Made by a program: the position numbers and the translations under genes
Notes under the pieces: generated by a model
The model's database searches: none
The model's input: only the letters and a program-made list of their open reading frames with translations
What the model was told of the DNA's origin: nothing
Shown: piece after piece, positions 26,925 to 59,778 of the stretch
Layout: each line of letters starts with the position of its first letter
How positions within the stretch are numbered: position 1 is the first letter of the stretch
From: Pristionchus mayeri
Lineage: Eukaryota; Nematoda; Chromadorea; Rhabditida; Neodiplogasteridae
Reading direction: 5' to 3'
DNA: 64,000 nt
NCBI GenBank assembly: GCA_036245805.1
Contig: BTRK01000001.1
Location: forward strand, 13,144,001 to 13,208,000

Positions 26925-27976
26925 ACAGGGTGGCTGATAAATATTGCGTCCACCTTTTGAATAATATCTCGCAAACAAATAAAAGGATAATTTTCATATT
27001 GCGTTTAAATATACCGTGCAAAACAATTACTAGACGCAGGCTTCATGGTATCGACTGGCCTCTTAGCATGGAGGAAAAAAGTAGTCTACATTTTTACTCA
27101 ATGCGCCGTTCACATTTTTCGATATATAAAATGATCTCAATGTCCATCGAAATTGCAACCGAGGTGAATATGAAGAGTAACCCTTCCACTAAGTGATAAT
27201 CTTGTCAAATGCGATATAGGGTCTCGGAAAACAGAGAGAGATAAATTTGATGACTTTCAGTCACGCATATGCAAAAAACTCACTTTTCGGAATTTCTTAT
27301 TCTGAATGTTGATACCGCCGTATAATGTTGCATAGCTATTAACAGAGTCGAGTTATGAAATAGTGTTGCATCAAATTGAATGTAAACGTTGCATTAATGG
27401 TAGAAGTAGGCACCTCAAAATATCGCTAAAAGCGGCGCTTCGCAGCATTTCGCAACTTATTCTGGTTCCGAATCAATATGCCCAAGCAAATGGAATGCAT
27501 TTTCACAATAAAAAATGATGCAGTATCATGCATAAAATAGAACAATTCCAATAGCTAATGTGTTCGAAGAATGCGGCTTCGAAATATTATTATTTTTTAT
27601 AGAGCGCCGTTCTTAATGAAATAATTTTAAAGCATTTCTGAGAAAGTTCCGAGGATGATAATATAATTGATCACATATTTATACGTGTAAATGATTGTTC
27701 TTATTAGGAATAAATGGATGAGTCCTGTATCTAATTCATTGCTGTAAGGCGGCATAAACTATCACATACGTTTATGTGCCCAGAAAAGTCCCAATTCCAA
27801 AACAAAATATTTCAGAAGTGATAACTCTTGAAATACTTGAACAATCCAGATAATATTTATAGGCTAATAACTTTTGTCCCTTACCAACATAGTTACCAAA
27901 TTTGATGCAATGGTGCCTACAGAGAATGGAGATTGAGAAACAAGAAAAGTGGCGCAATATTTATCAGCCACCCTGT
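26925..27976. mobile_element. DNA transposon remnant with 24-bp terminal inverted repeats; holds the left boundary of the palindrome
   Basis: ACAGGGTGGCTGATAAATAT (26925) and ATATTTATCAGCCACCCTGT (ending 27976) are exact inverted termini. The interior of about 1 kb has no transposase frame. The left end of the palindrome, base 27845, falls 131 bp inside its right end, so only that end is duplicated in the other arm (59625-59756). Confidence 0.82.
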
Positions 27977-28873
27977 ATTTGACATATTATTTAAATTTTG
28001 AGAAGAACAGTAATGTGATTGTAAATTTGATATTGCAAATTCTACGAAAGAAAAAAGTACGGCCTTATGATAATTATTTGTTTTAATATTTACATTAATT
28101 GTGGCTAAGTCTGACATTGCGAGCGGAAATGCTACTTGGATTTTAGGGAAACATTGATGATGGTCATGAACCAATTATGGGACTCTAACAAGAGAATTGT
28201 CAAAGATCTGCACAGAAACATGCAAAGTATGGTTCACGTTGTTGTTCGAAATAAGAAAAGTACCAGGATCTGTATCTGAACACAACATATATTACACTAA
28301 GACAGGAACGAACAATATATGACTATTCGTAACCGGGCTATTTACTCAACGAGAAGGGACAACAGATATATTGTGAAACTTGAGACAGGCGTAGGCATAG
28401 GTAGAGCCATTCTGGGACATTATCGGAATTGAGCGCTGTTTAATTCGTGCTATGACTGAGCCAGTAAACGCAATCTTTCAAATCATATGACACCACTAAA
28501 CACGAGCATTTTAATTAAAGATTAATAAACGTCCATTCATGTCATTCACAGAACTCGATATGTATGATAAATATTGCGAAGCGGAAATTGTTCCTCTCGT
28601 CGTTACCTGACCCATTTTCTGTCCTCCTTGAAGATTGAGATGCCTCTTTGATAATACATAATTTGAATGTTGTCTCATCACCCTCTAAATGTCGTTTTAA
28701 GCGTTACGCGATTAAGTGCACGTCGGATTCGAATTATTGCACGTCGGAATTATCATAATATGAAATGCGTGAGATTTTCCATGTTTGTTGCAATTTCCCT
28801 CCCTCTCCTTCTCCATTTTCCATTCATTCACTCCGATTCTTCTCGTCGCGCGCGGTCGGAGGCAGTCTTTGCC
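27977..28873. promoter_or_regulatory. 5' flank of the arm 1 DPP3-like gene
   Basis: No exon is seen here. About 0.9 kb upstream of the start codon at 28874 is included in the duplication, so both complete gene copies have the same proximal promoter. GC-rich TCGTCGCGCGCGGTCGG lies about 25 bp before the ATG. No TATA box or regulatory motif can be assigned. Confidence 0.4.
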
Positions 28874-31800
28874 ATGTGGAGCGTGAGTTGTTTTTGAATC
28901 ATTTTAATCTTTTGCACACATTTTCAACGCTTCGATCAATACACAATTTAAAAAAATATCTTTGATACGGTTTGAAAATGCAGGAGGGGTTTCTCGTCGT
29001 TGCCTCCATTCTGGTTGCGACTACCGTTCAATGGATTTGTGGTAGGAAGAGGGGCAAATATCGAACGAATGGATTGCCTGGAGAAAAGGCAAATAAGGTA
29101 TGCAATCTAATCAAGATATGTTATTGACACTTCCTTTTTAACACATTTTATCGCTAGCCAAACCATTAATCTACCTAATACAATATACCAGTGTTATAAT
29201 GTATTATAAGTTTCAGAATTTCGGTGGAGTTGGGAACGCTAAAGCCCAAAAAAAACCACTTAAATTCCGAGTTGTTCGCCTTGAATGCAATGACACCTTT
29301 AAATGTAAGTTTCTCTTATACTAATGGTGTGTCCAGAAAATTTTCTGATTTTTTTTGTATGAACATATTCTCCACATTAACGATTGTCCATCCCAAATTC
29401 CAATACTATTGAATTTAGTAACCATTGCCCAATCATAAGAATACAATATTGCTATGATTACAATACAATACAATATTTATCTGTTGTCGCTTTCTGACGA
29501 TGTGGGGTCAGAAAAGGTCGTTCTTCTCATTTCAAGATGGTCATTTGCGCTGTGCTTGCGAGAGGATCAACATCGGATCAACGATTTCATAGCATATGTA
29601 GAATCTCACTACATGTCGTAAACGAAGCCTTGCGTGTTCTCGAATATTCTTTGCTCGAATCCTCCAGACTCGATGATCAATCTTTCAACGATATGATCGA
29701 ATCTAGATTCTGAAGAAACAAACATCATGGTAGGTCATACCCATCACACGGTGACCACTCCGGCTTGGATTGAAATTCCTTTCTTGATGAGTCGACGGCG
29801 GAAGCGAGGGGAATTAGGGGAAACCACTCAAAATCACAGAGATATGAGAGGGACCGTCCGCGACGACTAACAAGGAATGGAATGGAATATTATGTTTCCT
29901 TCCAATCTGGCCAAAAGTACAAAGTAATATGAAGTACCACAAAATATCTCCAAGTTGCGCATATTCAAATTAGGGTTCGATTTTATCGCACAGAGAAAAA
30001 ACCTCTGCTTTTGTTGTTAAAGGAGACGCAAAGAGAAAATTCAATTTTTGAAGATTTGCATGGCTTAGTTCTCCCCAACGATAATAAGCTCCGAAATTTC
30101 CACATTGATATCTCCATTGCGAACAGAGCTAACGCTTGGCGGGGAGAAAAATCAGGGAAAGCTCAGGCAACGTGCGAGAGAGTGCGCGACTTGAAGGGAG
30201 TTCTCGTCAAATTGAAACATTTCAACCGGGCGTTCGTTTGCCTTTACTCCGGCTTTAAATGTGATCAGTAATGAGCGATCAATAAGTACACATGAGTGGC
30301 ACAAGTAAAGCCCACTTAAAGAATTATGTGATCTTGTATTTTAAAATTAGTAATTAGCGGTATCAAACCCATGCGTTCATGCGCAGCAAAAATATTATAG
30401 ACTAAAACGTTACGGTGGGTCAGTGAAGTACCAATAACATAAACTTGTTTAAAAAAAGGAAAACAGCTGATACAAATCTCATGAAATGTGTGTGATTGGG
30501 CAATGTTTGATCTATACAATAGTGTTGGTATTTGTGATTGACAATCGTTACTGTGGAGTATACTCCGAAAAAAAAATCGGAAAACTTTCTGGCCACCCCA
30601 ATATTCGTAGATTATATATTTTATATTTTAGGCCTCCCTTTGACTAAGCGAAAACAGATTCCAAATATGATAGAAATGTACTACAAGGAGCTATTCAATG
30701 AAGTCCTACAGGTGGATTTCACTTATAGAAATTACGTATAGAAAAAAAAACTTATAGAAAAAAAAACTTATAGAAATATCATTTTGACTGTTCTTACCAA
30801 TTCGAGGCATATTCCATCCACCTTTCACCATTCCCCACAAGGCATAATATTGATTTGATGGTTGTATAGTAACAGGGTTAAACTAGTGCAAAAGACCTTA
30901 CTATACAATATTACAGTACTTACCTGACGCAGCAGCCATAATCATTCTTCTCCATCGTATTTTCCACTCGGAATCAATCAAAGTGCTCAAGAAGAAAGCA
31001 AAACGAGTGGTGAGGCCAAAATCGCCAGTAAAATGTCTTCTAAACATACAGTCGCGCCGGAAAGTCACCAGGCACTGTTTGAACTTGTTGCAACTTTATG
31101 CACAGGAAAGGCATCATACTGGTACTAAGGTATGATGTACCTAATTCATCGGACAATATGGTCATGGTATTATGGCATGACGTCATTGCTTAGTTATTGC
31201 GTAGTGATGACACAATCAATCTTCACTTTTTCAAAACGACATTATTCTTACATAGATTTTTGTCTGCTTTCCAAACTTTCTGAGGTTGGATATATGACCG
31301 AGGGCTACCCAGAATATATTTTTGAATGAGCAGCGCGGTCGAAATTTGGCTGCAGTCGTGCTGCAAAAACAGGGTCCGAAATTCAGATCTCGGCATCTCG
31401 GCGACTAGCTGGAGAATCGTTCAATGCATCAAAGTGATCGTAATCACATTTCCAATTGATCCTGAGAATATTAAAATGGTCGGTCAACATTTGCCCTCAG
31501 GGCACCAAAAAATCACTTTTTTGCATGCTCATTTTTTGGACATTCATTACTTTGTGCGTAGTTTCTGGAAAAATCTGATTTTTATATGAGAATGTGCAAA
31601 ATGTATTACATATATGATGGCCAACTTTTTAGATTGTTTGGATATCTTTCCTGGCCGCTGCGAAAATTTTTCGCAGGGATACTCGGGTCTGGAGACACCT
31701 TATGTACCCCAATGGACGAGAGTGCGTAAACATGTTGTTTTCCGACCCTACCTCTGAAAAACGCACGCCGCGGCCAGGAAAGATATCCAAACAATCTAAA

Positions 31801-34800
31801 AAGTTGGCCTTCATATATGTAATACATTTTGCACATTCTCATATAAAAATCAGATTTTTCCATAAACTGTCCACAAAGTTATGAATGTCCAAGAAATGAG
31901 CATGTAAAAAAGTGATTTTTTGGTGCCCTGAGGGCAAATTTTGACCGATCATGTTCATATTCTGAGGATCATCTGGAATTGTGATTACTTTCATTTTGAT
32001 GCTTTGAACTAGTCTCCAGCTAGTCTAGAAGCCGAGATCTGAATTTCGGAGCCTGTTTTTTCAGCACGGCTGCAGCCAATGTGCGACCGCGAAAAAGTGC
32101 ATATTGATTGCGTCATCACTACGCAATAATTAAGCAATGACTATTGTGTAGTCGCCCTTGCCTTGTAGCCTTACTCAATTACCATACGTGTAGACTAGAC
32201 TCCCCTCTTCCCTCGTCTAGTGCAGACTGCACTCTCCCCTCCTCTCCCCATTGGCTATTAGCATGTCACCTGTTAATGACCTTGTCTCGATCATAGTCAC
32301 ATTCTTCCGATTGATTCCTCGTGAAGTGCGAGTGAATGCAGTGAAGAGGGACGACTCTTACGTGAAGTGGATTGAGAGGGAGTACAGTGACATCTGCAAG
32401 GAAGGACTGGGAACGTGTGAGAAGGCTAAGGCGAGGTTCCGCTTGAGAGAAGGATCGATTCCCGTCTTCTGCAAGAGAAGAGACATTCCCCTTGCCTTAC
32501 TTCCCAAAGTCGATGAAGAGATTGACAGACTTCTTGCGATGAATGCAATCGAGTCGGTGGAATACCTCGAGTGGGCAGCACCCATCCTGGTGGTTCCGAA
32601 GCCGAACGGGAAGTTGAGAGTGTGCGTAGACTTCTCAACTGGTCTGAACGCGAATCTCGAGCCGCATAATCACCCGTTGCCGGTTATGACAGAGATATTC
32701 ACTCGTCTGGAAGGATGCACTCTCTTCAGTCAGATCGATCTCAGTGATGCATATCTGCAAATTCCAGTGGAGGAGACGTGTAGAGATCTGCTTGGAGTGT
32801 GCACGCATAGAGGATTGTTCCGTTTCACGAGATTGCCATTCGGAGTGAGCGTAGCTCCTGGAATCTTTCAGAAGGCGATGGACACGATGCTTGCCGGTTG
32901 TAACAACGCCCAGGCGTATCTGGATGACATCGTGGTCGGTGGAAAGAACAAGGAAAGTCACGACATGAATCTGAAGAGAGTACTCGAGAGAATCAAAGAT
33001 TATGGATTCAGAATTCGACCAGAAAAGTGCTCATTCGGAATGAGTAAAATCAAGTACCTCGGATTCATTATTGATCAAGCTGGAAGAAGACCAGACCCAG
33101 CAAAGGTGAAGGCTGTGAGGGAAATGCCACCGCCACAAGATGTACACTCATTGAGATCTTTTCTCGGAATGGTATCCTACTACGGGTCTTTTATCGATGG
33201 GATGCAGAAGTTGCGATCACCTCTCGATTACCTGCTCAGAGATGGTGTTGAGTGGAATTGGTCGATAGAATGCGAGAAAGCATTCAAGGAAATTAGATCG
33301 ATTCTGGCATCAGATCTGAATTTGATTCACTACGATCCTCAGAAGGAATTGGTGCTAGCTGCTGATGCGAGTGAGAAAGGAATCGGAGGGATGATCGCCC
33401 ACCGAGTCATTGGAAGACTCGTGCCGATTGTACATGCATCAAGAGCCTTGAAATCAGCCGAGATCAAATACGCCCAGATCGAGAAAGAAGGACTGGCTTT
33501 GGTTTTCGGAGTGACGAAGTTCCATCGATACCTATTTGGAAGGAGATTTGTGATGCAAACGGATCATAAGCCCCTCCTGACGATATTCGGATCGAAGAAT
33601 GGAATACCGGTGCATACAGCGAGGAGACTGTATCACTGGGCGACGATCTTGTTGGGATATAACTTTACGATGGAACTTTACGATACGGAGGGTTTCGCTT
33701 ATGCAGATGCACTCTCTCGATTGATGGTTGATTCGAGAGATGGACAAGATGATGAGAATGTGCTCGAAGATGCAGAGACACTCATCGTGAGAATAATCAG
33801 AACCAGCATCGAGAAATTGCCTGTAACTTCTGAGGATATCAAATACGCGCTATCGGCGGACCAGCTGCTGTCTAGAGTCAGGAATTTCCATCTCACGAGA
33901 TGGCCGAATGAGAAGACTCTCCGTGAGGATAGTGAATTTGACCAACTGAAGCCATTTTACTCAAGGAGAATGGAGTTGGCGGTGGTTGACGATTGTCTAA
34001 TGGTGAACAATCGAGTCGTAATTCCCAGATCGCTCATCAAGGAAGTGCTGAAAATGCTGCGTGCAGGGCACCCAGGTGTTGTCAGAAAGAAGTCGATTGC
34101 TCGACAGGTGTGCTACTGGTATCGGATGTACGGAGACATTGAACAAGTTGTTCTTTCGTGCGATCAGTGTGCACAGGCACTCAAGAGACCGACGAAGGTG
34201 CCACTCGAACCATGGCCGAAGACGCGTGATCCATGGGAGAGAATCCACTTGGAATATTGCGGTCCTGTGGACGGTAAATGTCTCCTGGTCATAGTCGACT
34301 CATTGCCGAAATGGCCCGAAGTCGTGGTGACATCGTCGATGACTGCAGGTGCCACAATTCGTATTCTGAATGAATCGATCGCCAGGAACGGCCTCCCCAG
34401 AGTGATAGTGACAGATAATGGCCCGCAGTTCAATTCGGATGCGTTTAATCGTTACTGTCGTGAAAGTGGAATTATCCACATGAATACTCCTACGTACCAC
34501 CCCCAGAGCAATGGTCAGGCGGAGGGATTTGTCGATTCCGTGAAGAGAAGTTTGCTGAAGCAAAAGGGAGAGCGATCACTCGAGGAAGCTCTCCAGCTGT
34601 TTCTCTACAACTATCGGAAAACTCCAAATCCCCAGTGTGATGGGAAGACACCGAGTGAAATGATGTTCGGAAGGAACATTCGATCAGAGGTGGATCTCAT
34701 GAGTCCCATGAGAGTAATGACTGGAAACGATGAACGGATCGACCGAATGAGGGAGAGATTCGATCAGAAACACGGTGCGAAAGCACGATCGTTCAAGATT

Positions 34801-37800
34801 GGAGATAATGTCTTGTACGATATGCAAGTTTCCCCGAATGGTCGGAAGTGGACTAAAGGGATCGTGAATGGTCGAATCGGGAAGACCACGAAGTGACACT
34901 GGATGATCGAACAGTGAGGGCACATACCAATCAGCTGAGAATGAGAATGGACTCTGATCGAGAGATCGAGTATGTGACTAATCCAGTAAGGGATGATGAG
35001 GCACAAGTTGATGACGTTGATGTGACGGACACGAAGGCCGATGCCGAGCAGATCGCTGGCGACAAGAAACTCGAAGAAGACGAGTTTCTTGCCCCGTGCC
35101 GAGAAGATCTACAAGGACGAGTGCACCACCGAAGAGACTCAATGTCAGTTTCAAGAAAAAACGGTACGACGAAGAATGAGTTCCCGACCAAAAATTCTTC
35201 AATCGTGGCCCATTGATTATTGCATCGTCGTAATTGTCTATTTTTTTATCAGATTCACCCTCAGTTTGAATCTTGGAGGGAGGTGTTGTGTAAAGGCCCT
35301 TGCCTTGTACCCTTACTCAATTACCATACGTGTAGACTAGACTCCCCTCTTCCCTCGTCTAGTGCAGACTGCACTCTCCCCTCCTCTTAGCATGTCACCT
35401 GTTAATGGCATTGTCTCGCATATTCAAGACGAGTCCGCCCGACTCGTCTCTCGCCCTCTCTTCTTCCTTCTCCCCTGTTTCTCTTGTATTGAGCGGTTGC
35501 TCCTCCCTTGTCTGCGATAAAGCTTGGTTCCCTCTTCGCTCTTGGAGTACGGGACAGGCGACTACACAATAATGGCGTCATGTCATAATATCATGACCAT
35601 AATGTCCGATGAATTTGGTGCATCATACCTTACAATTAGTGTCAGTATGATGCCTTTCCTGGTCAAAAAGTTGCAATAAATTCAAAAAGTGTCCGGTGAC
35701 TTTCCGGCGCGACTGTACATTTGTGTGAAGCTATAATAAACGATGCAAAAAATCAAATTAATGCTAAGAAATTTTTTTGTAGTCACACACTTTTGAACAT
35801 ATGTTATGTAATCATAGACAAAGAAAATGATAGCAAGATAATTCGAAAAACACAACATCACACTCTTTTCATTCCCTTTACTAGCTCGGATTGGATGGTG
35901 CTCAAAATGAAAATTGAAATGATTCGATTTGAGGGTGTTTCGAATCGGGAGTGGAGGATTTTTCTCGCGTTTGCTGCCTCTCGTCTGACACTCACTGGAA
36001 ACAGGCACGGCCTCCACGAACTTCCACAAGTAATTTATATTTATCGCGGATATGGTTGCATGCTCACTAATATGAATTTGAAAAATACACAAAATGTATC
36101 TAAAGACAATTTGAACAGTCACTCTTCTTTGACATTATCTTTACAACATCACGAAAAGACCGCATGTTTGCATAAAATACGCTACACATGGTAATCAGGG
36201 CAGTATGTCGGATGATCACCGTCGGATGATAACCTACTGGATGATAACCAAAAATAAACCCCTCTGTAGAACTTTAACATAATCATTTTTGACACTTTGG
36301 GAACCTATTGTGAAAGTTCTTTTTTGGTTATTATCCGACCTGGTGCCGCAATCAGACAAAATCGTCAGGAGAAACTGCGAAAATTCGTTGCTTCAACTGA
36401 TGAAGCCCGATTCTCTGACCTCATGCAGCTGTATGATGCAGTCAAGGAGGAACTGTACCGGCCGATTAAACTGAGCAACACAATCCGTATTGTTAATTGT
36501 CAATAATCAATCTTCATCATTCTATCTCAGATTTCGGGCTACATGAATTGGCTTACGGAACAAACCCGACATATGCGAAACAATTCTCACTCCTGGTAAC
36601 AAGGGCATCTGAAATTTTCAAAAAGTGAGCAATTTAAGAACACAATCGAATATTTATAACACTACATGATTATATGTCAATGATTTAATTTGGTTTGGCT
36701 ATAAATTCTTTATACACATGCCTACGTAATAAATTTCAAATTATTTTTTACATGTTTATAGAATTTCCATATGGTATGTTTATTGTTCTTGTTTGCAGAC
36801 TACCATGGGATGAAGCGTATGGGAGAGATGAGACTATTCCCATGCCGAAATTTGAAATGATTGACGTTTTTGCCTATGGACCTGCTGATGTCGATGGCAT
36901 AAACAACAGTACATATATTATTTGTTTTATTTTAAATAAATGCAAACATACGTCTACAAATTTCCCTCTTTGATTTTTTTGCCTCTAAGATGGCAGGTGG
37001 AGCAAAACGTGCTACGGCATATCTAGTCTTTAGCCGTTAACGAAGTTGTTTGTCAAAGAATAACATAGTATTAATTTATTTAACATATTTTGTTTCTTTT
37101 CAGCATCGAGAGGATATTCGCTAATCTTAGCCAATGTGAACGCAACAGTTTGGAGCAGCTGTGTGATATTCCTTAGCAGAACCGATCAGGTGTGACCATA
37201 GTTGCGAGCAAAGGCCTCCCTCTCTTCAGATAACACACTATCTAGCAGATGAGAGACAGCGAGAGAGCACGCTAATTGGAGAGAGTCAGACACTTGACCA
37301 CAGTTGCCCAGCACTGGCGGCAGCTTGCCAGGACAGTGTTCATCCATGAACCCCTATGCCTGCCTTTTTATCAGGCAGTGCTCAACGACGTACAGGGGTT
37401 CATGGAAAAGTGTCAGGCAGTGTTCATCCATGAATAGGGCTCAAGGGGGTTGCCGTCGGTGTGGGTGGGCACTAGGTCGGATGAGAACTATGACGTCATT
37501 CCGCCTTTGATATATCAAAGGTTTCATGACGTCATAGTTCTCATTCGACCTAGTGCCCTATGGGTGTGACTAATAGGGTTCGACAATACCGTATGAGCAA
37601 TAAGCGCAGGCGTAAATACAAAAAAAAACTACATATCAGGCCTCTCACTAGAGAATCGGGACAAATGAGCATTTTCAGTTGACATTCAAATTTTAGGAAA
37701 TCTTGCAAATTATGTTTCCTCTTAGTACTTGACTAGACTAGACTAAAACTGAAGTTTCAGATTTATTATTTGCGCTGCAGCCGCAGCAGGCTGCCGCAAA

Positions 37801-40800
37801 CTTTAGACGTAGGTCATTGGTAATTGAAGTTTTGACCGATCAATGTGGTGATATTTGCTCGCAAAAGTGTTTCTATGATCAAATGATCGATTTTGGCGCA
37901 TGTTATTCATTTTTCACTTTTGCGACCGTTGCAGCAGACGCATAGTGGACCAGTTTTTAATTTCTAAGTTGAGGTTACATTTTTTGCTTCTCTCCAAACT
38001 TTCCCAGTTGTAGAGCTTGAAATTCTGCACATATCGGATTTTTTGTCGAATTTATCTCTGTGGTATTTGCACATTCCCAAGTCGGCGAAAACCTCATAAC
38101 GGGCTGCACGGTTCACAAGCAGTGGATCTCAGTTCGCCAAGTCGCAAGTTCGAACCCCAGCCAGAGCAGACAGGATTTTTGCCATGTGATTACATCGAAA
38201 AAGTAAGTCTGAGGGTGTTATAGGTCATTTAAATGATAAAAATAGATGGCAAAAAACTTGTCTGCTCTGGCTGGGGTTCGAACTTGCGACTTGGCGAACT
38301 CAGATCCACTGCAAGTGAACCGTGCAGCCCGTTATCAGGTTTTCGCCTACTTGGGAATGTGCAAAGACCACAGAGATAAAATCGACAAAAAATATGGCAT
38401 GTGCAGAATTTCAAGCTCTACAAACTGAAAAAGTTTGGAGAGAAGCAAAAAATGTACGCTCAGCTTAGAAATTAAAAACTAGTCCACCATGCGTCTGCTG
38501 CAACGGTCGCAAAAGTGAAAAATGAACAACATGCGCCAAAATCGTTCATTTGATCATAGAAACACTTTTGTGAGCAATTGTCGCCACTTTAATCGGTCAA
38601 ACCCTCAATACTCGATGAACTATGTCTAAAGTTTGCAGCAGCCTGCTGCAGCTGCAAGATGCAATTGGGCCAAACGGGACATGGACAATCTTCTAGACCT
38701 CATATCCGTACTAGAACACTTTAAAAAATAAATATTTGAATTTTCAATGTCAACTCGTTGTCCCGATTCTCTCGTGAGAGGCCTGATATTAGATTGGTTC
38801 AAACATTTAGCAGAATATTTTTATTGACAGTGAGCATATGACTAGATTTATGCGATATCGTCCTGCACCCCATTACACTCTTAAAGGAGGTGTAAAGGCA
38901 AACGAGCGTCCGGTTGAAATATGTTTCAATTAGAGGAGAGCTCTCTTCAAGTCGCGTGCTCTCTCGCTCGTTGCCTGTGCTTTCCCTGATTTGGCTCCCC
39001 GCAAACTACAGATAGCTCTGTTTGTAATGGAGATATCAATGTAAAAATTTCGGAACTTCTTATCGTTGGGGAGATCTAGGCCGTGCATATGAAAGCTTCA
39101 AAAATCAAAAATTAAATTGAATTTTGCCTTTGGTCCTACTTTAATACGAGTTAGTTGCTGCACAAAAATACGCATTTACTCATACTAACTATTAGTTGCG
39201 CGTCAAATATAACGGGAATACTCTAGAACAACGCGTATCTGAAAAGCGAACCATACGTTTCTATGCAAGCAATTTATAAACAAAATATACATTTATTTCT
39301 AGAAAATGATGCATCAGTATGCGAAGAGAGGCGATCTTTTGAGGATAGCGCTGCACGAATACTTCGGGCACAATAGCAGCAGAATGTTCATGGTAGGCGA
39401 AGCGGTCGAACAAAATTACAAATATTTGAGCAATTAACATTAGGGATAACCCAATGATGGTGATTCGATGAATTGCAAAGGGACGTGGATGGAAAATTCA
39501 ACTTCGACAAGGATAATACTGTGGACATTGTGACAGGAGGCGAAGTGGGTATTGCCCACTGGGTAACACTGCGACATTTCTTCGAATATTATTTATTTAT
39601 CTCCAAACGTACGCATCATGGATATCCAGATATACGATGACTACAAAATGTAGGAAACCAATAAAAAAAGATGCAAATTGCATGGCCAAATATCAAAGTA
39701 TTCTGGAGACATTTTGAAAGACATCTCGTGTTTCTTCTCACTCAATAAATTTTTAATCATTTGTACTGTACCTAGAAGTGGGAGGAGATAGATCATATAA
39801 TGGTGTGGTCAGTAATCCAGGAAATGCTGCAGGTCACTTCATGGTACGAATCAATCGATCCGTTGTGCGGACCGAGGAAGCTCTACACGACCGTCTTCGG
39901 GGAGCTTTCGAAACCTCTCGAGGAAGCTCGGACCATGGCAGTTACACTCGTCCTCTGTGCCGATCGAGACATTCTCGAGTGAGTTACGCTAGGCTTAGGT
40001 TAGGCTTAGGCTTAGGCGTATGCTCTGAGGTTATTTAGGTTTGTTAGGCTTAGGTTTTGGTCTGAGATTTTCTTGGGATGGGGATAAGGCTTAGGCTCAA
40101 AATACTTGTCCTCATTATACATGATGTGAATTAAAATCTGATAAATGAAACTACGATCTCTTAATTATACACAGCCTCTCGACCGATTGCGTTTCGAGAC
40201 AGTTTCCATTTTTTTTTAAAACTGTAATCAGTTCTTGCTTTCTCCATTAGACGGCGAATTCACCATGCATTTCGGCAATAAAATATGAATATTGCTTGCA
40301 AATGTCCTTTCAATGTCGATTTATGGTTTAAAAGAGGAGTAACCTCAAAATTCAATTGTTGAAGCTATCCTATGCACTGCCAAGAGCGCCCCAACGATAA
40401 GAAGCTCCGAGATTTTCACATTGATATCTCCATTCCGAACAGAGTTATAGCGAGCTGGCTGGGAGCCAGATCAGGGACAGCTCAGGGAAGGCGGCTAGAT
40501 AGCACGCGACTTGAAGAGAGTGCGTCCCTATGTGAAACATATTCCAACCGGGCACGCGTTTGCATTTACTCCTCCTTTATTGCACGATTCATTTCAGGAT
40601 GGCGGGTTACACAGGTGACAGCGGGCTGAGCGTGGCATACGCAATATGGTTGCGAAAGTTGTGGTTAGGAGTAATCGCACTCGACACGTACAGTGCCGAG
40701 AGCAAGAAGTGGGATGGTGTGAGTTTAGCCCTGCTTTGATATGTTTTGCTTTCGTTTATTTTAAAATTTTATAGACAAAAGCCTCTTTTTCGGAAAAAAA

Positions 40801-41994: not shown

Positions 41995-42333
41995 ACTGCA
42001 AATTTATTTTCCCAAGGTTACTAACTCGATGAGTACACGAGAATAAACGCTTTCCAATGTGCACTTTTCCAAATCATGAAAAGCGAAAACGAGGAAGAGC
42101 TACTAGTAATAAAGGAAATAATCAAACGCCGCATTACATTTCATGCATCTGAGATATGATGTTGTAAGAAGCACACATTATTTGTTGAGTCACTGAATAT
42201 TTTAAGGAATATTATATTTACAAAATATAATAATTCGAATTAAACCATCGTTAGCATACACATTTGCATCGAATAAGAACGGTTTATCGATTTTGAGATG
42301 TGAGTTGTATGTGATCTACAATTTATCTTCTTC

Positions 42334-43798: not shown

Positions 43799-43964
43799 TC
43801 TGGTTCAATATCAATACAATATCCATATGGGGTTAGCAATTCGAAGTCGGATTGCGAATTTGCAACGCCCCCCCCCCCTCTTCGGATTTCGCACTATGCT
43901 AGAGGAGGCGATTGCGAATTCACAAATTCGACTTCGTACTGCCAACCCTAGTACAGATTGAATG
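43645..43964. other. 320-bp asymmetric spacer at the palindrome centre
   Basis: The arms stop matching at 43644/43965. The left 183 bp belong to the surface-protein gene of arm 1. Bases about 43828-43950 form a small inverted-repeat element with an 11-C run. The last 14 bp touch arm 2. The third unit carries the same spacer in reverse (about 63702-64000). Confidence 0.9.
43828..43950. mobile_element. Small hAT-like MITE in the spacer
   Basis: TGGGGTTAGCAATTCGAAGT at the left is mirrored by GACTTCGTACTGCCAACCCTA-like sequence at the right; GATTGCGAATT recurs on both sides of CCCCCCCCCCC. I see no target duplication. Identification as hAT-like rests only on the GGGTTGGC-type tip. Confidence 0.55.
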
Positions 43965-43977
43965 GTATGTTTCTCTT

Positions 43978-45275: not shown

Positions 45276-45614
45276 GAAGAAGATAAATTGTAGATCACAT
45301 ACAACTCACATCTCAAAATCGATAAACCGTTCTTATTCGATGCAAATGTGTATGCTAACGATGGTTTAATTCGAATTATTATATTTTGTAAATATAATAT
45401 TCCTTAAAATATTCAGTGACTCAACAAATAATGTGTGCTTCTTACAACATCATATCTCAGATGCATGAAATGTAATGCGGCGTTTGATTATTTCCTTTAT
45501 TACTAGTAGCTCTTCCTCGTTTTCGCTTTTCATGATTTGGAAAAGTGCACATTGGAAAGCGTTTATTCTCGTGTACTCATCGAGTTAGTAACCTTGGGAA
45601 AATAAATTTGCAGT

Positions 45615-48600: not shown

Positions 48601-51600
48601 TAGTTTGCGGGGAGCCAAATCAGGGAAAGCACAGGCAACGAGCGAGAGAGCACGCGACTTGAAGAGAGCTCTCCTCTAATTGAAACATATTTCAACCGGA
48701 CGCTCGTTTGCCTTTACACCTCCTTTAAGAGTGTAATGGGGTGCAGGACGATATCGCATAAATCTAGTCATATGCTCACTGTCAATAAAAATATTCTGCT
48801 AAATGTTTGAACCAATCTAATATCAGGCCTCTCACGAGAGAATCGGGACAACGAGTTGACATTGAAAATTCAAATATTTATTTTTTAAAGTGTTCTAGTA
48901 CGGATATGAGGTCTAGAAGATTGTCCATGTCCCGTTTGGCCCAATTGCATCTTGCAGCTGCAGCAGGCTGCTGCAAACTTTAGACATAGTTCATCGAGTA
49001 TTGAGGGTTTGACCGATTAAAGTGGCGACAATTGCTCACAAAAGTGTTTCTATGATCAAATGAACGATTTTGGCGCATGTTGTTCATTTTTCACTTTTGC
49101 GACCGTTGCAGCAGACGCATGGTGGACTAGTTTTTAATTTCTAAGCTGAGCGTACATTTTTTGCTTCTCTCCAAACTTTTTCAGTTTGTAGAGCTTGAAA
49201 TTCTGCACATGCCATATTTTTTGTCGATTTTATCTCTGTGGTCTTTGCACATTCCCAAGTAGGCGAAAACCTGATAACGGGCTGCACGGTTCACTTGCAG
49301 TGGATCTGAGTTCGCCAAGTCGCAAGTTCGAACCCCAGCCAGAGCAGACAAGTTTTTTGCCATCTATTTTTATCATTTAAATGACCTATAACACCCTCAG
49401 ACTTACTTTTTCGATGTAATCACATGGCAAAAATCCTGTCTGCTCTGGCTGGGGTTCGAACTTGCGACTTGGCGAACTGAGATCCACTGCTTGTGAACCG
49501 TGCAGCCCGTTATGAGGTTTTCGCCGACTTGGGAATGTGCAAATACCACAGAGATAAATTCGACAAAAAATCCGATATGTGCAGAATTTCAAGCTCTACA
49601 ACTGGGAAAGTTTGGAGAGAAGCAAAAAATGTAACCTCAACTTAGAAATTAAAAACTGGTCCACTATGCGTCTGCTGCAACGGTCGCAAAAGTGAAAAAT
49701 GAATAACATGCGCCAAAATCGATCATTTGATCATAGAAACACTTTTGCGAGCAAATATCACCACATTGATCGGTCAAAACTTCAATTACCAATGACCTAC
49801 GTCTAAAGTTTGCGGCAGCCTGCTGCGGCTGCAGCGCAAATAATAAATCTGAAACTTCAGTTTTAGTCTAGTCTAGTCAAGTACTAAGAGGAAACATAAT
49901 TTGCAAGATTTCCTAAAATTTGAATGTCAACTGAAAATGCTCATTTGTCCCGATTCTCTAGTGAGAGGCCTGATATGTAGTTTTTTTTTGTATTTACGCC
50001 TGCGCTTATTGCTCATACGGTATTGTCGAACCCTATTAGTCACACCCATAGGGCACTAGGTCGAATGAGAACTATGACGTCATGAAACCTTTGATATATC
50101 AAAGGCGGAATGACGTCATAGTTCTCATCCGACCTAGTGCCCACCCACACCGACGGCAACCCCCTTGAGCCCTATTCATGGATGAACACTGCCTGACACT
50201 TTTCCATGAACCCCTGTACGTCGTTGAGCACTGCCTGATAAAAAGGCAGGCATAGGGGTTCATGGATGAACACTGTCCTGGCAAGCTGCCGCCAGTGCTG
50301 GGCAACTGTGGTCAAGTGTCTGACTCTCTCCAATTAGCGTGCTCTCTCGCTGTCTCTCATCTGCTAGATAGTGTGTTATCTGAAGAGAGGGAGGCCTTTG
50401 CTCGCAACTATGGTCACACCTGATCGGTTCTGCTAAGGAATATCACACAGCTGCTCCAAACTGTTGCGTTCACATTGGCTAAGATTAGCGAATATCCTCT
50501 CGATGCTGAAAAGAAACAAAATATGTTAAATAAATTAATACTATGTTATTCTTTGACAAACAACTTCGTTAACGGCTAAAGACTAGATATGCCGTAGCAC
50601 GTTTTGCTCCACCTGCCATCTTAGAGGCAAAAAAATCAAAGAGGGAAATTTGTAGACGTATGTTTGCATTTATTTAAAATAAAACAAATAATATATGTAC
50701 TGTTGTTTATGCCATCGACATCAGCAGGTCCATAGGCAAAAACGTCAATCATTTCAAATTTCGGCATGGGAATAGTCTCATCTCTCCCATACGCTTCATC
50801 CCATGGTAGTCTGCAAACAAGAACAATAAACATACCATATGGAAATTCTATAAACATGTAAAAAATAATTTGAAATTTATTACGTAGGCATGTGTATAAA
50901 GAATTTATAGCCAAACCAAATTAAATCATTGACATATAATCATGTAGTGTTATAAATATTCGATTGTGTTCTTAAATTGCTCACTTTTTGAAAATTTCAG
51001 ATGCCCTTGTTACCAGGAGTGAGAATTGTTTCGCATATGTCGGGTTTGTTCCGTAAGCCAATTCATGTAGCCCGAAATCTGAGATAGAATGATGAAGATT
51101 GATTATTGACAATTAACAATACGGATTGTGTTGCTCAGTTTAATCGGCCGGTACAGTTCCTCCTTGACTGCATCATACAGCTGCATGAGGTCAGAGAATC
51201 GGGCTTCATCAGTTGAAGCAACGAATTTTCGCAGTTTCTCCTGACGATTTTGTCTGATTGCGGCACCAGGTCGGATAATAACCAAAAAAGAACTTTCACA
51301 ATAGGTTCCCAAAGTGTCAAAAATGATTATGTTAAAGTTCTACAGAGGGGTTTATTTTTGGTTATCATCCAGTAGGTTATCATCCGACGGTGATCATCCG
51401 ACATACTGCCCTGATTACCATGTGTAGCGTATTTTATGCAAACATGCGGTCTTTTCGTGATGTTGTAAAGATAATGTCAAAGAAGAGTGACTGTTCAAAT
51501 TGTCTTTAGATACATTTTGTGTATTTTTCAAATTCATATTAGTGAGCATGCAACCATATCCGCGATAAATATAAATTACTTGTGGAAGTTCGTGGAGGCC

Positions 51601-54600
51601 GTGCCTGTTTCCAGTGAGTGTCAGACGAGAGGCAGCAAACGCGAGAAAAATCCTCCACTCCCGATTCGAAACACCCTCAAATCGAATCATTTCAATTTTC
51701 ATTTTGAGCACCATCCAATCCGAGCTAGTAAAGGGAATGAAAAGAGTGTGATGTTGTGTTTTTCGAATTATCTTGCTATCATTTTCTTTGTCTATGATTA
51801 CATAACATATGTTCAAAAGTGTGTGACTACAAAAAAATTTCTTAGCATTAATTTGATTTTTTGCATCGTTTATTATAGCTTCACACAAATGTACAGTCGC
51901 GCCGGAAAGTCACCGGACACTTTTTGAATTTATTGCAACTTTTTGACCAGGAAAGGCATCATACTGACACTAATTGTAAGGTATGATGCACCAAATTCAT
52001 CGGACATTATGGTCATGATATTATGACATGACGCCATTATTGTGTAGTCGCCTGTCCCGTACTCCAAGAGCGAAGAGGGAACCAAGCTTTATCGCAGACA
52101 AGGGAGGAGCAACCGCTCAATACAAGAGAAACAGGGGAGAAGGAAGAAGAGAGGGCGAGAGACGAGTCGGGCGGACTCGTCTTGAATATGCGAGACAATG
52201 CCATTAACAGGTGACATGCTAAGAGGAGGGGAGAGTGCAGTCTGCACTAGACGAGGGAAGAGGGGAGTCTAGTCTACACGTATGGTAATTGAGTAAGGGT
52301 ACAAGGCAAGGGCCTTTACACAACACCTCCCTCCAAGATTCAAACTGAGGGTGAATCTGATAAAAAAATAGACAATTACGACGATGCAATAATCAATGGG
52401 CCACGATTGAAGAATTTTTGGTCGGGAACTCATTCTTCGTCGTACCGTTTTTTCTTGAAACTGACATTGAGTCTCTTCGGTGGTGCACTCGTCCTTGTAG
52501 ATCTTCTCGGCACGGGCTGGCCGTCTTCGAGTTTCTTGTCGCCAGCGATCTGCTCGGCATCGGCCTTCGTGTCCGTCACATCAACGTCATCAACTTGTGC
52601 CTCATCATCCCTTACTGGATTAGTCACATACTCGATCTCTCGATCAGAGTCCATTCTCATTCTCAGCTGATTGGTATGTGCCCTCACTGTTCGATCATCC
52701 AGTGTCACTTCGTGGTCTTCCCGATTCGACCATTCACGATCCCTTTAGTCCACTTCCGACCATTCGGGGAAACTTGCATATCGTACAAGACATTATCTCC
52801 AATCTTGAACGATCGTGCTTTCGCACCGTGTTTCTGATCGAATCTCTCCCTCATTCGGTCGATCCGTTCATCGTTTCCAGTCATTACTCTCATGGGACTC
52901 ATGAGATCCACCTCTGATCGAATGTTCCTTCCGAACATCATTTCACTCGGTGTCTTCCCATCACACTGGGGATTTGGAGTTTTCCGATAGTTGTAGAGAA
53001 ACAGCTGGAGAGCTTCCTCGAGTGATCGCTCTCCCTTTTGCTTCAGCAAACTTCTCTTCACGGAATCGACAAATCCCTCCGCCTGACCATTGCTCTGGGG
53101 GTGGTACGTAGGAGTATTCATGTGGATAATTCCACTTTCACGACAGTAACGATTAAACGCATCCGAATTGAACTGCGGGCCATTATCTGTCACTATCACT
53201 CTGGGGAGGCCGTTCCTGGCGATCGATTCATTCAGAATACGAATTGTGGCACCTGCAGTCATCGACGATGTCACCACGACTTCGGGCCATTTCGGCAATG
53301 AGTCGACTATGACCAGGAGACATTTACCGTCCACAGGACCGCAATATTCCAAGTGGATTCTCTCCCATGGATCACGCGTCTTCGGCCATGGTTCGAGTGG
53401 CACCTTCGTCGGTCTCTTGAGTGCCTGTGCACACTGATCGCACGAAAGAACAACTTGTTCAATGTCTCCGTACATCCGATACCAGTAGCACACCTGTCGA
53501 GCAATCGACTTCTTTCTGACAACACCTGGGTGCCCTGCACGCAGCATTTTCAGCACTTCCTTGATGAGCGATCTGGGAATTACGACTCGATTGTTCACCA
53601 TTAGACAATCGTCAACCACCGCCAACTCCATTCTCCTTGAGTAAAATGGCTTCAGTTGGTCAAATTCACTATCCTCACGGAGAGTCTTCTCATTCGGCCA
53701 TCTCGTGAGATGGAAATTCCTGACTCTAGACAGCAGCTGGTCCGCCGATAGCGCGTATTTGATATCCTCAGAAGTTACAGGCAATTTCTCGATGCTGGTT
53801 CTGATTATTCTCACGATGAGTGTCTCTGCATCTTCGAGCACATTCTCATCATCTTGTCCATCTCTCGAATCAACCATCAATCGAGAGAGTGCATCTGCAT
53901 AAGCGAAACCCTCCGTATCGTAAAGTTCCATCGTAAAGTTATATCCCAACAAGATCGTCGCCCAGTGATACAGTCTCCTCGCTGTATGCACCGGTATTCC
54001 ATTCTTCGATCCGAATATCGTCAGGAGGGGCTTATGATCCGTTTGCATCACAAATCTCCTTCCAAATAGGTATCGATGGAACTTCGTCACTCCGAAAACC
54101 AAAGCCAGTCCTTCTTTCTCGATCTGGGCGTATTTGATCTCGGCTGATTTCAAGGCTCTTGATGCATGTACAATCGGCACGAGTCTTCCAATGACTCGGT
54201 GGGCGATCATCCCTCCGATTCCTTTCTCACTCGCATCAGCAGCTAGCACCAATTCCTTCTGAGGATCGTAGTGAATCAAATTCAGATCTGATGCCAGAAT
54301 CGATCTAATTTCCTTGAATGCTTTCTCGCATTCTATCGACCAATTCCACTCAACACCATCTCTGAGCAGGTAATCGAGAGGTGATCGCAACTTCTGCATC
54401 CCATCGATAAAAGACCCGTAGTAGGATACCATTCCGAGAAAAGATCTCAATGAGTGTACATCTTGTGGCGGTGGCATTTCCCTCACAGCCTTCACCTTTG
54501 CTGGGTCTGGTCTTCTTCCAGCTTGATCAATAATGAATCCGAGGTACTTGATTTTACTCATTCCGAATGAGCACTTTTCTGGTCGAATTCTGAATCCATA

Positions 54601-57600
54601 ATCTTTGATTCTCTCGAGTACTCTCTTCAGATTCATGTCGTGACTTTCCTTGTTCTTTCCACCGACCACGATGTCATCCAGATACGCCTGGGCGTTGTTA
54701 CAACCGGCAAGCATCGTGTCCATCGCCTTCTGAAAGATTCCAGGAGCTACGCTCACTCCGAATGGCAATCTCGTGAAACGGAACAATCCTCTATGCGTGC
54801 ACACTCCAAGCAGATCTCTACACGTCTCCTCCACTGGAATTTGCAGATATGCATCACTGAGATCGATCTGACTGAAGAGAGTGCATCCTTCCAGACGAGT
54901 GAATATCTCTGTCATAACCGGCAACGGGTGATTATGCGGCTCGAGATTCGCGTTCAGACCAGTTGAGAAGTCTACGCACACTCTCAACTTCCCGTTCGGC
55001 TTCGGAACCACCAGGATGGGTGCTGCCCACTCGAGGTATTCCACCGACTCGATTGCATTCATCGCAAGAAGTCTGTCAATCTCTTCATCGACTTTGGGAA
55101 GTAAGGCAAGGGGAATGTCTCTTCTCTTGCAGAAGACGGGAATCGATCCTTCTCTCAAGCGGAACCTCGCCTTAGCCTTCTCACACGTTCCCAGTCCTTC
55201 CTTGCAGATGTCACTGTACTCCCTCTCAATCCACTTCACGTAAGAGTCGTCCCTCTTCACTGCATTCACTCGCACTTCACGAGGAATCAATCGGAAGAAT
55301 GTGACTATGATCGAGACAAGGTCATTAACAGGTGACATGCTAATAGCCAATGGGGAGAGGAGGGGAGAGTGCAGTCTGCACTAGACGAGGGAAGAGGGGA
55401 GTCTAGTCTACACGTATGGTAATTGAGTAAGGCTACAAGGCAAGGGCGACTACACAATAGTCATTGCTTAATTATTGCGTAGTGATGACGCAATCAATAT
55501 GCACTTTTTCGCGGTCGCACATTGGCTGCAGCCGTGCTGAAAAAACAGGCTCCGAAATTCAGATCTCGGCTTCTAGACTAGCTGGAGACTAGTTCAAAGC
55601 ATCAAAATGAAAGTAATCACAATTCCAGATGATCCTCAGAATATGAACATGATCGGTCAAAATTTGCCCTCAGGGCACCAAAAAATCACTTTTTTACATG
55701 CTCATTTCTTGGACATTCATAACTTTGTGGACAGTTTATGGAAAAATCTGATTTTTATATGAGAATGTGCAAAATGTATTACATATATGAAGGCCAACTT
55801 TTTAGATTGTTTGGATATCTTTCCTGGCCGCGGCGTGCGTTTTTCAGAGGTAGGGTCGGAAAACAACATGTTTACGCACTCTCGTCCATTGGGGTACATA
55901 AGGTGTCTCCAGACCCGAGTATCCCTGCGAAAAATTTTCGCAGCGGCCAGGAAAGATATCCAAACAATCTAAAAAGTTGGCCATCATATATGTAATACAT
56001 TTTGCACATTCTCATATAAAAATCAGATTTTTCCAGAAACTACGCACAAAGTAATGAATGTCCAAAAAATGAGCATGCAAAAAAGTGATTTTTTGGTGCC
56101 CTGAGGGCAAATGTTGACCGACCATTTTAATATTCTCAGGATCAATTGGAAATGTGATTACGATCACTTTGATGCATTGAACGATTCTCCAGCTAGTCGC
56201 CGAGATGCCGAGATCTGAATTTCGGACCCTGTTTTTGCAGCACGACTGCAGCCAAATTTCGACCGCGCTGCTCATTCAAAAATATATTCTGGGTAGCCCT
56301 CGGTCATATATCCAACCTCAGAAAGTTTGGAAAGCAGACAAAAATCTATGTAAGAATAATGTCGTTTTGAAAAAGTGAAGATTGATTGTGTCATCACTAC
56401 GCAATAACTAAGCAATGACGTCATGCCATAATACCATGACCATATTGTCCGATGAATTAGGTACATCATACCTTAGTACCAGTATGATGCCTTTCCTGTG
56501 CATAAAGTTGCAACAAGTTCAAACAGTGCCTGGTGACTTTCCGGCGCGACTGTATGTTTAGAAGACATTTTACTGGCGATTTTGGCCTCACCACTCGTTT
56601 TGCTTTCTTCTTGAGCACTTTGATTGATTCCGAGTGGAAAATACGATGGAGAAGAATGATTATGGCTGCTGCGTCAGGTAAGTACTGTAATATTGTATAG
56701 TAAGGTCTTTTGCACTAGTTTAACCCTGTTACTATACAACCATCAAATCAATATTATGCCTTGTGGGGAATGGTGAAAGGTGGATGGAATATGCCTCGAA
56801 TTGGTAAGAACAGTCAAAATGATATTTCTATAAGTTTTTTTTTCTATAAGTTTTTTTTTCTATACGTAATTTCTATAAGTGAAATCCACCTGTAGGACTT
56901 CATTGAATAGCTCCTTGTAGTACATTTCTATCATATTTGGAATCTGTTTTCGCTTAGTCAAAGGGAGGCCTAAAATATAAAATATATAATCTACGAATAT
57001 TGGGGTGGCCAGAAAGTTTTCCGATTTTTTTTTCGGAGTATACTCCACAGTAACGATTGTCAATCACAAATACCAACACTATTGTATAGATCAAACATTG
57101 CCCAATCACACACATTTCATGAGATTTGTATCAGCTGTTTTCCTTTTTTTAAACAAGTTTATGTTATTGGTACTTCACTGACCCACCGTAACGTTTTAGT
57201 CTATAATATTTTTGCTGCGCATGAACGCATGGGTTTGATACCGCTAATTACTAATTTTAAAATACAAGATCACATAATTCTTTAAGTGGGCTTTACTTGT
57301 GCCACTCATGTGTACTTATTGATCGCTCATTACTGATCACATTTAAAGCCGGAGTAAAGGCAAACGAACGCCCGGTTGAAATGTTTCAATTTGACGAGAA
57401 CTCCCTTCAAGTCGCGCACTCTCTCGCACGTTGCCTGAGCTTTCCCTGATTTTTCTCCCCGCCAAGCGTTAGCTCTGTTCGCAATGGAGATATCAATGTG
57501 GAAATTTCGGAGCTTATTATCGTTGGGGAGAACTAAGCCATGCAAATCTTCAAAAATTGAATTTTCTCTTTGCGTCTCCTTTAACAACAAAAGCAGAGGT

Positions 57601-58727
57601 TTTTTCTCTGTGCGATAAAATCGAACCCTAATTTGAATATGCGCAACTTGGAGATATTTTGTGGTACTTCATATTACTTTGTACTTTTGGCCAGATTGGA
57701 AGGAAACATAATATTCCATTCCATTCCTTGTTAGTCGTCGCGGACGGTCCCTCTCATATCTCTGTGATTTTGAGTGGTTTCCCCTAATTCCCCTCGCTTC
57801 CGCCGTCGACTCATCAAGAAAGGAATTTCAATCCAAGCCGGAGTGGTCACCGTGTGATGGGTATGACCTACCATGATGTTTGTTTCTTCAGAATCTAGAT
57901 TCGATCATATCGTTGAAAGATTGATCATCGAGTCTGGAGGATTCGAGCAAAGAATATTCGAGAACACGCAAGGCTTCGTTTACGACATGTAGTGAGATTC
58001 TACATATGCTATGAAATCGTTGATCCGATGTTGATCCTCTCGCAAGCACAGCGCAAATGACCATCTTGAAATGAGAAGAACGACCTTTTCTGACCCCACA
58101 TCGTCAGAAAGCGACAACAGATAAATATTGTATTGTATTGTAATCATAGCAATATTGTATTCTTATGATTGGGCAATGGTTACTAAATTCAATAGTATTG
58201 GAATTTGGGATGGACAATCGTTAATGTGGAGAATATGTTCATACAAAAAAAATCAGAAAATTTTCTGGACACACCATTAGTATAAGAGAAACTTACATTT
58301 AAAGGTGTCATTGCATTCAAGGCGAACAACTCGGAATTTAAGTGGTTTTTTTTGGGCTTTAGCGTTCCCAACTCCACCGAAATTCTGAAACTTATAATAC
58401 ATTATAACACTGGTATATTGTATTAGGTAGATTAATGGTTTGGCTAGCGATAAAATGTGTTAAAAAGGAAGTGTCAATAACATATCTTGATTAGATTGCA
58501 TACCTTATTTGCCTTTTCTCCAGGCAATCCATTCGTTCGATATTTGCCCCTCTTCCTACCACAAATCCATTGAACGGTAGTCGCAACCAGAATGGAGGCA
58601 ACGACGAGAAACCCCTCCTGCATTTTCAAACCGTATCAAAGATATTTTTTTAAATTGTGTATTGATCGAAGCGTTGAAAATGTGTGCAAAAGATTAAAAT
58701 GATTCAAAAACAACTCACGCTCCACAT
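45615..58727 (-). CDS. dpp3: DPP3-like dipeptidyl peptidase (M49), arm 2 copy
   Basis: Mirror of the arm 1 gene: start codon at 58727, stop ending at 45615, and the same exon set, HEYFGH (exon 48217-48306) and EEARTM (exon 47631-47833). The translated exons are identical to arm 1, and so are about 0.9 kb of 5' flank and the same phase conflict (48217/48128). If both are expressed, the copies would give a higher dose of one enzyme, not two enzymes. Transcripts of the arms could also pair with each other. Confidence 0.8.
47029..47281. mobile_element. TTAA-type MITE, family M1 (arm 2 mirror of 40328-40580)
   Basis: Identical in reverse complement to the arm 1 copy. Confidence 0.85.
47512..47621 (-). 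repeat. Interstitial telomere-type repeat, arm 2 copy
   Basis: GCCTAAGCCTAAGCCTAACC and related units; reverse complement of the arm 1 tract. Confidence 0.85.
48465..48728. mobile_element. TTAA-bounded MITE, family M1 (arm 2 mirror of 38881-39144)
   Basis: Reverse complement of the arm 1 copy. Confidence 0.8.
48823..49973. mobile_element. Fold-back element with tRNA-like segments (arm 2 mirror)
   Basis: Reverse complement of 37636-38786. Confidence 0.85.
50047..50143. mobile_element. ~97-bp hairpin MITE (arm 2 mirror)
   Basis: Reverse complement of 37466-37562. Confidence 0.85.
52043..55454 (-). mobile_element. gag-less Ty3/gypsy-like LTR element (arm 2 mirror)
   Basis: 3' LTR 52043-52320, truncated 5' LTR 55312-55454. 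The C-terminal reading frame around 52.44-52.53 kb is uninterrupted here (PRRSTRTSAPPKRL), unlike arm 1, so this arm holds the less altered version. Confidence 0.9.
52705..55338 (-). pseudogene. LTR-element pol remnant (arm 2 mirror)
   Basis: Same translation as the arm 1 frame over its whole length, including the YLDD, TDNGPQF and NGQAEGF motifs and the early stop. The tail beyond is in another frame here too, so that break predates the duplication. Confidence 0.9.
57000..58277. mobile_element. Tc1/mariner-like element with nested M1 MITE (arm 2 mirror)
   Basis: Reverse complement of 29324-30601; nested MITE at 57343-57584. Confidence 0.75.
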
Positions 58728-59756
58728 GGCAAAGACTGCCTCCGACCGCGCGCGACGAGAAGAATCGGAGTGAATGAATGGAAAATGGAGAAGGAGAGGG
58801 AGGGAAATTGCAACAAACATGGAAAATCTCACGCATTTCATATTATGATAATTCCGACGTGCAATAATTCGAATCCGACGTGCACTTAATCGCGTAACGC
58901 TTAAAACGACATTTAGAGGGTGATGAGACAACATTCAAATTATGTATTATCAAAGAGGCATCTCAATCTTCAAGGAGGACAGAAAATGGGTCAGGTAACG
59001 ACGAGAGGAACAATTTCCGCTTCGCAATATTTATCATACATATCGAGTTCTGTGAATGACATGAATGGACGTTTATTAATCTTTAATTAAAATGCTCGTG
59101 TTTAGTGGTGTCATATGATTTGAAAGATTGCGTTTACTGGCTCAGTCATAGCACGAATTAAACAGCGCTCAATTCCGATAATGTCCCAGAATGGCTCTAC
59201 CTATGCCTACGCCTGTCTCAAGTTTCACAATATATCTGTTGTCCCTTCTCGTTGAGTAAATAGCCCGGTTACGAATAGTCATATATTGTTCGTTCCTGTC
59301 TTAGTGTAATATATGTTGTGTTCAGATACAGATCCTGGTACTTTTCTTATTTCGAACAACAACGTGAACCATACTTTGCATGTTTCTGTGCAGATCTTTG
59401 ACAATTCTCTTGTTAGAGTCCCATAATTGGTTCATGACCATCATCAATGTTTCCCTAAAATCCAAGTAGCATTTCCGCTCGCAATGTCAGACTTAGCCAC
59501 AATTAATGTAAATATTAAAACAAATAATTATCATAAGGCCGTACTTTTTTCTTTCGTAGAATTTGCAATATCAAATTTACAATCACATTACTGTTCTTCT
59601 CAAAATTTAAATAATATGTCAAATACAGGGTGGCTGATAAATATTGCGCCACTTTTCTTGTTTCTCAATCTCCATTCTCTGTAGGCACCATTGCATCAAA
59701 TTTGGTAACTATGTTGGTAAGGGACAAAAGTTATTAGCCTATAAATATTATCTGGA

Positions 59757-59778
59757 AATATTGCCCTATAAATATTGC
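59757..59778. other. 22-bp filler at the palindrome/third-unit junction
   Basis: Between the end of arm 2 (ATCTGGA at 59756) and the start of the third unit (CATCTCGTG) lies a 22-bp segment. It contains CCTATAAATATT, which repeats the CCTATAAATATT located just upstream at about 59738-59749, and AATATTGC twice. The filler looks copied from nearby sequence. Confidence 0.85.

Follow-up and report, generated by a model that had tools for sequence, protein, structure and literature searches.

A near-identical palindrome in Pristionchus mayeri forms the left edge of an array of inverted copies with an unusually readable history

A near-perfect palindrome with gene-bearing arms of 15.8 kb raises the question of whether it is a genuine part of the genome and, if so, through which events it arose. 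The window analysed, i.e. the whole stretch of 64,000 nucleotides (C1:13144001-13208000), belongs to contig C1 of the Pristionchus mayeri assembly, which comprises 290.8 Mb in 73 contigs, with about 287 Mb in six contigs of 39.7-57.3 Mb. The COX1 of the assembly, translated with the invertebrate mitochondrial code, has its best hit in Litoditis at 91% identity, which places the host among the rhabditid nematodes. The map covers the window with its surroundings on C1, 20 kb on the left and 100 kb on the right, together with the entire separate contig C13 (49,226 bp), and for C1 the numbering of the window is extended to coordinates above 64000. Self-comparison of the arms reproduced the palindrome as initially annotated, with its coordinates, 320 bp spacer and single 8 bp indel: arm A (27845-43644, plus strand, 15,800 bp) is the reverse complement of arm A' (43965-59756, minus strand, 15,792 bp) at 99.93% identity, and the differences are confined to one patch (35078-35092 versus 52517-52524, net 8 bp). 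Given the length of the arms, the inverted repeat is not due to chance.

The palindrome is, however, not self-contained, as further copies, missed in the initial annotation, follow past 59756. Arm A' is succeeded by a 22 bp junction insert (59757-59778) and then by a third, partial arm copy on the plus strand (A-tail, 59779-63701), which in the window self-comparison repeats 39722-43644 at 100%. A copy of the spacer in the canonical A-S orientation (63702-64000) continues beyond the window to 64021 and is followed by segment X, and 59779-64000 likewise equals 43666-47887 in reverse complement. The window thus ends inside an array of inverted and tandem copies that is larger than the palindrome and has the palindrome as its left edge. 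The order on C1 is left flank - A | J1 | S' - A' - 22 bp - A-tail - S - X - sp - X' - S' - partial A' | J4, with X at 64022-68926, sp of 717 bp, X' beginning at 69644 and the final partial A' reaching 78502, where junction J4 is located. One of the two A' copies of C1 follows J1, and the other ends at J4. Beyond J4, C1 contains a separate third palindrome (78503-84741 / 85488-91704) and after it the right flank. The palindromes with spacers of 320, 717 and 746 bp adjoin one another, each with a single-copy spacer between inverted arms. The spacer of the window palindrome (S', 43645-43964) is delimited on the right by the canonical A|S boundary and on the left by the one-off junction J1 (43644|43645), and S is ordinary arm-flanking DNA, as it adjoins X in four of the five other spacer copies, the fifth being in the noisy end of C13.

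On contig C13, the segments follow one another in the same order as in the C1 unit A' - 22 bp - A-tail - S - X - sp - X' - S'. This repeating unit of ~30.9 kb, which includes arm A' of the window, is present once plus partially on C1 and as ~1.6 units on C13, where the two sites of the junction carrying the 22 bp insert (J3) are spaced 30,904 bp apart. On the map of C1 and C13, the array copies alternate in orientation at one locus, and in the C13 palindrome A-S-X-sp-X'-S'-A' one arm is full and the other is shortened by J3. Since the complete A' behind X'-S' on C13 can be neither of the two A' copies of C1, the assembly holds at least one copy more than C1. A spacer flip between the two contigs was also considered and rejected, C13 merely reading the unit on the opposite strand.

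Junctions were counted genome-wide with up to 2 mismatches and no indels allowed. J1 occurred once; for J3 the count was three (one on C1, two on C13), and for S|X it was four (two on each contig). Within the C1 region and C13, the A|S boundary was found six times and J4 once. At J1, A and S' share a single base. J4 has an overlap of 0 bp, and its breakpoint falls in the last A' copy at an interstitial telomere-like motif of the arm, (TTAGGC)3, located in arm A at 40000-40017 on the plus strand. J3 joins arm ends that are 11.9 kb apart, and 12 of the 22 bases of its insert copy the adjacent arm start (27853-27864); flank matches as good as this also arose in 16 shuffled versions of the insert out of 20,000, and in 11 random 22-mers of the region, of which at most 20,000 were drawn. 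The junction of the left flank and arm A (J0, 27844|27845) is inside a dispersed repeat of 95-99% identity, which spans the site in 39 of the 41 matches listed (best 40 of 180 candidates scored, the A' copies not among them), the other two being the window itself and a fragment. As the repeat spans the boundary in at least 39 other places, the join of arm A to the left flank is native, and the ending of A' at 27845 is due to J3 alone.

Copies outside the noisy ends of C13 had 0-7 differences from a variant reference built from the C1 copies, which means that two of them, the left arm and C1 forward, were partly compared with themselves. The patch was in its long form (35078-35092) in the left arm only, and in its short form (52517-52524 in A') in all three other copies covering the site, i.e. 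A' of C1 and two copies on C13. The long allele contains an 11 bp inverted copy of its own flank, on account of which it is probably a derived change of the snap-back type in the left arm. In five other copies of the retroelement within which the patch is found, the sequence resembles the short allele plus about 36-39 additional bases. At sites 17937, 18103 and 21022 of segment X (reference numbering), the forward C1 copy has A, G and A, the reverse C1 copy and the full C13 copy have G, A and C, and the C13 partner copy has A, A and A. Sites 17937 and 21022 are thus phased alike on the two contigs; at 18103 this holds for X', whereas the forward copies of the two contigs differ. Near J4, four additional differences were seen in the reverse C1 copy. 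The first 5.7 kb of C13 contained 55 differences, and the last C13 copy 16, four of which constitute the patch, the remainder being mostly single-base indels that cluster toward the contig end. Both C13 ends are rich in such indels, which suggests noisy reads or a low-coverage consensus, and these differences were set aside as non-biological. Consensus polishing may, moreover, have raised the apparent similarity among the copies.

A very recent event, one of the explanations initially offered for arms so alike, fits one mutational patch between 15.8 kb arms and the few differences among the other copies. No single-base substitutions were present outside the patch in 15.8 kb of arm. At the C. 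elegans rate of about 2.7e-9 mutations per base and generation, the array would be at most roughly 35,000 generations old, a weak bound because polishing could have removed differences.

The metallopeptidase gene annotated in each arm was borne out by a Peptidase_M49 (PF03571) profile match at 41218-41373 (E 2.1e-09, 36.8 bits against a cut-off of 21), mirrored in arm A', and a second match at 41624-41806 was under the cut-off (E 0.014). The gene is a predicted divergent paralogue of dipeptidyl peptidase III (DPP III, M49), spanning 30923-41976 on the plus strand on the basis of exon-peptide matches, the profile and a motif scan, with its mirror copy at 45633-56678 on the minus strand as derived from the arm alignment. 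From the DPP III gene on contig C6, 11 of 17 exon peptides were colinear in arm A (matches at 30923, 35931, 36797, 39306, 39476, 39830, 40596, 40959, 41224, 41639 and 41926), two of them weakly (35931, E 0.008; 41926, E 0.005), and the DPP III peptides of contig C5 agreed where both were used. The motif HEYFGH is at 39354 within the 39306 match, and EEAR is in the match at 39830-39979; HExxGH and the EE motif form the zinc site of DPP III. No credible match in arm A was found for exon peptides e1, e4-e7 and e9, about five weak matches out of order (E 0.13-0.44) having been set aside, and with these six exons lacking a match the arm gene may be divergent or broken. Segment X contains the first half of a second DPP III paralogue, interrupted by the sp fold-back. 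Elsewhere, M49 matches were located in eight further C1 places outside the region and at single loci on contigs C4, C5 and C6. Among 8 exon pairs considered for Ka/Ks, e2 and e10 were dropped due to a one-codon offset, and the pooled value was left unused; e15 of arm A compared with the third palindrome gave about 0.07/0.54, and the e11 pair had no finite Ks.

Mobile elements are also carried by the arms. A retroelement pol frame with RVT_1, RNase H and integrase domains (32221-34896, plus strand; 52705-55380, minus strand, in arm A') lies within the DPP III gene between the first two matched exons, and the direct repeats flanking it (32144-32299 / 35286-35426) are probable LTR remnants. A self-inverted, multicopy element resembling foldback transposons is located at 37776-38656, with its mirror copy at 48953-49833. 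In the mapped 184 kb of C1, close repeats of at least 200 bp with a spacer below 1.5 kb gave 28 inverted and 1 direct entries, some of which represent one element in both arms. Fold-back as a single genome-wide mutational process was considered in this connection and rejected, as the small inverted repeats searched (three: L015:992-3236, 17433-19309 and 37776-38656) are multicopy transposon-like families.

The account that we regard as the most probable, with a modest degree of confidence, is a recent chromosomal amplification of an inverted dimer, in which the window palindrome would derive from a central deletion of the larger palindrome that is intact on C13. An ancestral stretch A-S-X-sp within a cluster of DPP III paralogues would have been copied in alternating orientation, the product being the unit A' - 22 bp - A-tail - S - X - sp - X' - S', as expected if an inverted dimer had closed to form a circle or a tandem. 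From the structure in the assembly we infer the order of events, the dimer intermediate and the repair pathway as follows. Fold-back at sp would first have produced the palindrome A-S-X-sp-X'-S'-A'; at the other end, A' would have been rejoined to A with the loss of 11.9 kb of one arm and the gain of the templated 22 bp insert; tandem repetition of the unit would have followed; and at the left edge a deletion of 10,847 bp (S-X-sp-X') with a 1 bp overlap would have left A|S'-A' with the native left flank retained. Counting against this amplification model are the single occurrences of J1 and J4, the noisy ends of C13, a duplicate of COX1 in the assembly, the lack of overlap at J4, the absence of short, closely spaced inverted repeats at J1 and J3, and the loss of the ancestral sequence beyond sp, where the first fold-back would have taken place.

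J1 could instead be the primary event, a broken end having folded back with a 320 bp loop, as happens in human fold-back inverted duplications or in breakage-fusion-bridge cycles. Fold-back inverted duplications in humans carry a spacer at the loop according to the cited portion of PMC3907307, and here three spacer-bearing palindromes stand side by side. However, 13 sequenced human fold-back junctions are given there with 2-8 bp of inverted microhomology, against the 1 bp overlap of J1; the C13 form A-S-X-sp-X'-S' yields J1 by a single deletion; and arm A is still attached to its native left flank. We consider this origin of J1 possible but doubtful, and the deletion model is preferred to direct fold-back because C13 has the undeleted centre and J1 shares only one base.

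An assembly artefact, in which fold-back reads, chimeras from whole-genome amplification or a tangled repeat graph made both the palindromes and C13, appears somewhat less likely still, even for just some essential part of the structure. As stated in the cited part of PMC12870357, about 0.55-0.6% of the genomic reads obtained with ONT are of the fold-back type, and such reads are able to tangle assemblies. In this assembly, C13 has noisy ends, J1 is unique genome-wide, and equal-scoring COX1 copies located 15.18 kb apart near the end of contig C2 possibly represent a misjoin. Both arms of a fold-back read would come from one molecule and share alleles as well as outer sequence, and here they share neither: the arms differ in their outer flanks, and the long allele is in the left arm only, with the short one in three copies. 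The initial argument against a simple hairpin-read chimera is strengthened by these observations. Moreover, J3 is present 3 times and S|X 4 times across two contigs, in exact form each time. Overlap-assembler misjoins require long shared sequence, for which the 1 bp overlap at J1 is too short.

It is improbable that C13 is a 30.9 kb extrachromosomal circle, formed by an inverted dimer and covered 1.6 times by the contig, beside integrated copies; if true, a natural amplicon would be seen in both free and integrated form. Least probable is an older ampliconic palindrome with arms held identical by gene conversion, perhaps for DPP III dosage: the arms are near identical and carry a gene, and a conversion tract could account for site 18103, at which one C13 copy departs from the corresponding copy on C1, but only three X/X' sites vary and would need no conversion if AAA were ancestral, two X/X' differences have kept their phase on the two contigs, and the allele of the left arm has escaped homogenisation. 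Gene conversion may have acted on the arms, although their identity does not require it.

Read as inverted amplification with a later central deletion, the array has parallels in several known systems. ODIRA is presented in the cited sections of PMC10766183 and PMC10766186 as producing inverted dimers with later rearrangement of palindrome centres, and the inverted triplications of yeast and inverted human CNVs described there share with the array alternating inverted copies, a unit like an inverted dimer, and altered centres. ODIRA in these sections yields one triplication, whereas the nematode array is a tandem of units. Short inverted repeats of the ODIRA type within about 100 bp were not found at the testable junctions J1 and J3, and J1 has a 320 bp spacer in place of such close repeats; the secondary deletion could have removed the original ones. 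The human fold-back inverted duplications, as far as they are described in the cited portion of PMC3907307, similarly have inverted copies around a single-copy spacer, but the nematode array is interstitial, in a contig that continues past it, and its J1 overlap is 1 bp.

Polymerase theta of C. elegans is characterised in the cited part of PMC5068794 by priming from a single base and by templated inserts. The 22 bp insert of J3, templated near the break, resembles such end joining, as would the single-base overlap of J1 and the snap-back allele of the arm; J4 is without overlap, and a theta-like mark is accordingly not present at every junction. The theta scars reported there are small deletions, whereas large inverted segments are joined in the array. 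Newborn gene duplicates in C. elegans are adjacent and in inverted orientation, as given in the cited passage of PMC2728529. The inverted copies here differ from these in having 15.8 kb arms in a higher-order array.

Inverted-repeat amplicons of Leishmania are inverted dimers, and mammalian sex-chromosome palindromes have gene-bearing, near-identical arms; the nematode array is like both, but with no known drug selection or sex linkage. Among the papers listed in a literature search, there was no nematode palindrome array of the inverted-amplification kind. Inverted amplifications are known best from tumours, patients and yeast under selection, and here one assembly contains the centre-intact form, the centre-deleted form and a templated end-joining scar, all of the same amplicon. 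If the array is real, it would allow the sequence of events following palindrome formation to be tested in a worm. The rearrangement is of a known kind, and its history can be read unusually well.

Divergent matches to dipeptidyl peptidase III (DPP III, peptidase family M49), a paralogue of which is carried in the palindrome arms, were dispersed along contig C1 at 26.40, 26.59, 26.86, 30.57, 30.59, 32.90, 35.86 and 37.62 Mb, whereas contigs C4, C5 and C6 contained one locus each, and the family thus appears to have expanded in the lineage on a single chromosome (C1).

Adjoining the array of ~30.9-kb units built of inverted copies, a third palindrome was located outside the window on C1 (78503–91704 in continued window numbering), with a 746 bp spacer and an arm-to-arm identity of 99.4%, and DPP III exons were present in it as well. 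The right edge of the array (junction J4, 78502|78503) coincided with an interstitial, telomere-like (TTAGGC)3 motif, which was found in each arm copy (40000–40017, 47592–47609 and 60057–60074).

The left edge of the window's palindrome was spanned by a high-copy dispersed repeat (27645–27977; copies of 95–99% identity). Inverted-repeat or foldback transposon-like families at 17433–19309, 37776–38656 and 992–5894 of working sequence L015 had numerous copies across the genome. Additionally, a LINE-like endonuclease/reverse transcriptase reading frame divided over two overlapping frames (21691–24652) and a minus-strand tRNA-Thr (CGT) gene (20182–20256) were identified.

Near the end of contig C2 (44,588,995), two equally scoring COX1 copies 15,181 bp apart (44.55–44.58 Mb; sequences L034–L036) and a degenerate third copy suggest a tandem mitochondrial genome, i.e. 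a misjoin or a nuclear concatemer.
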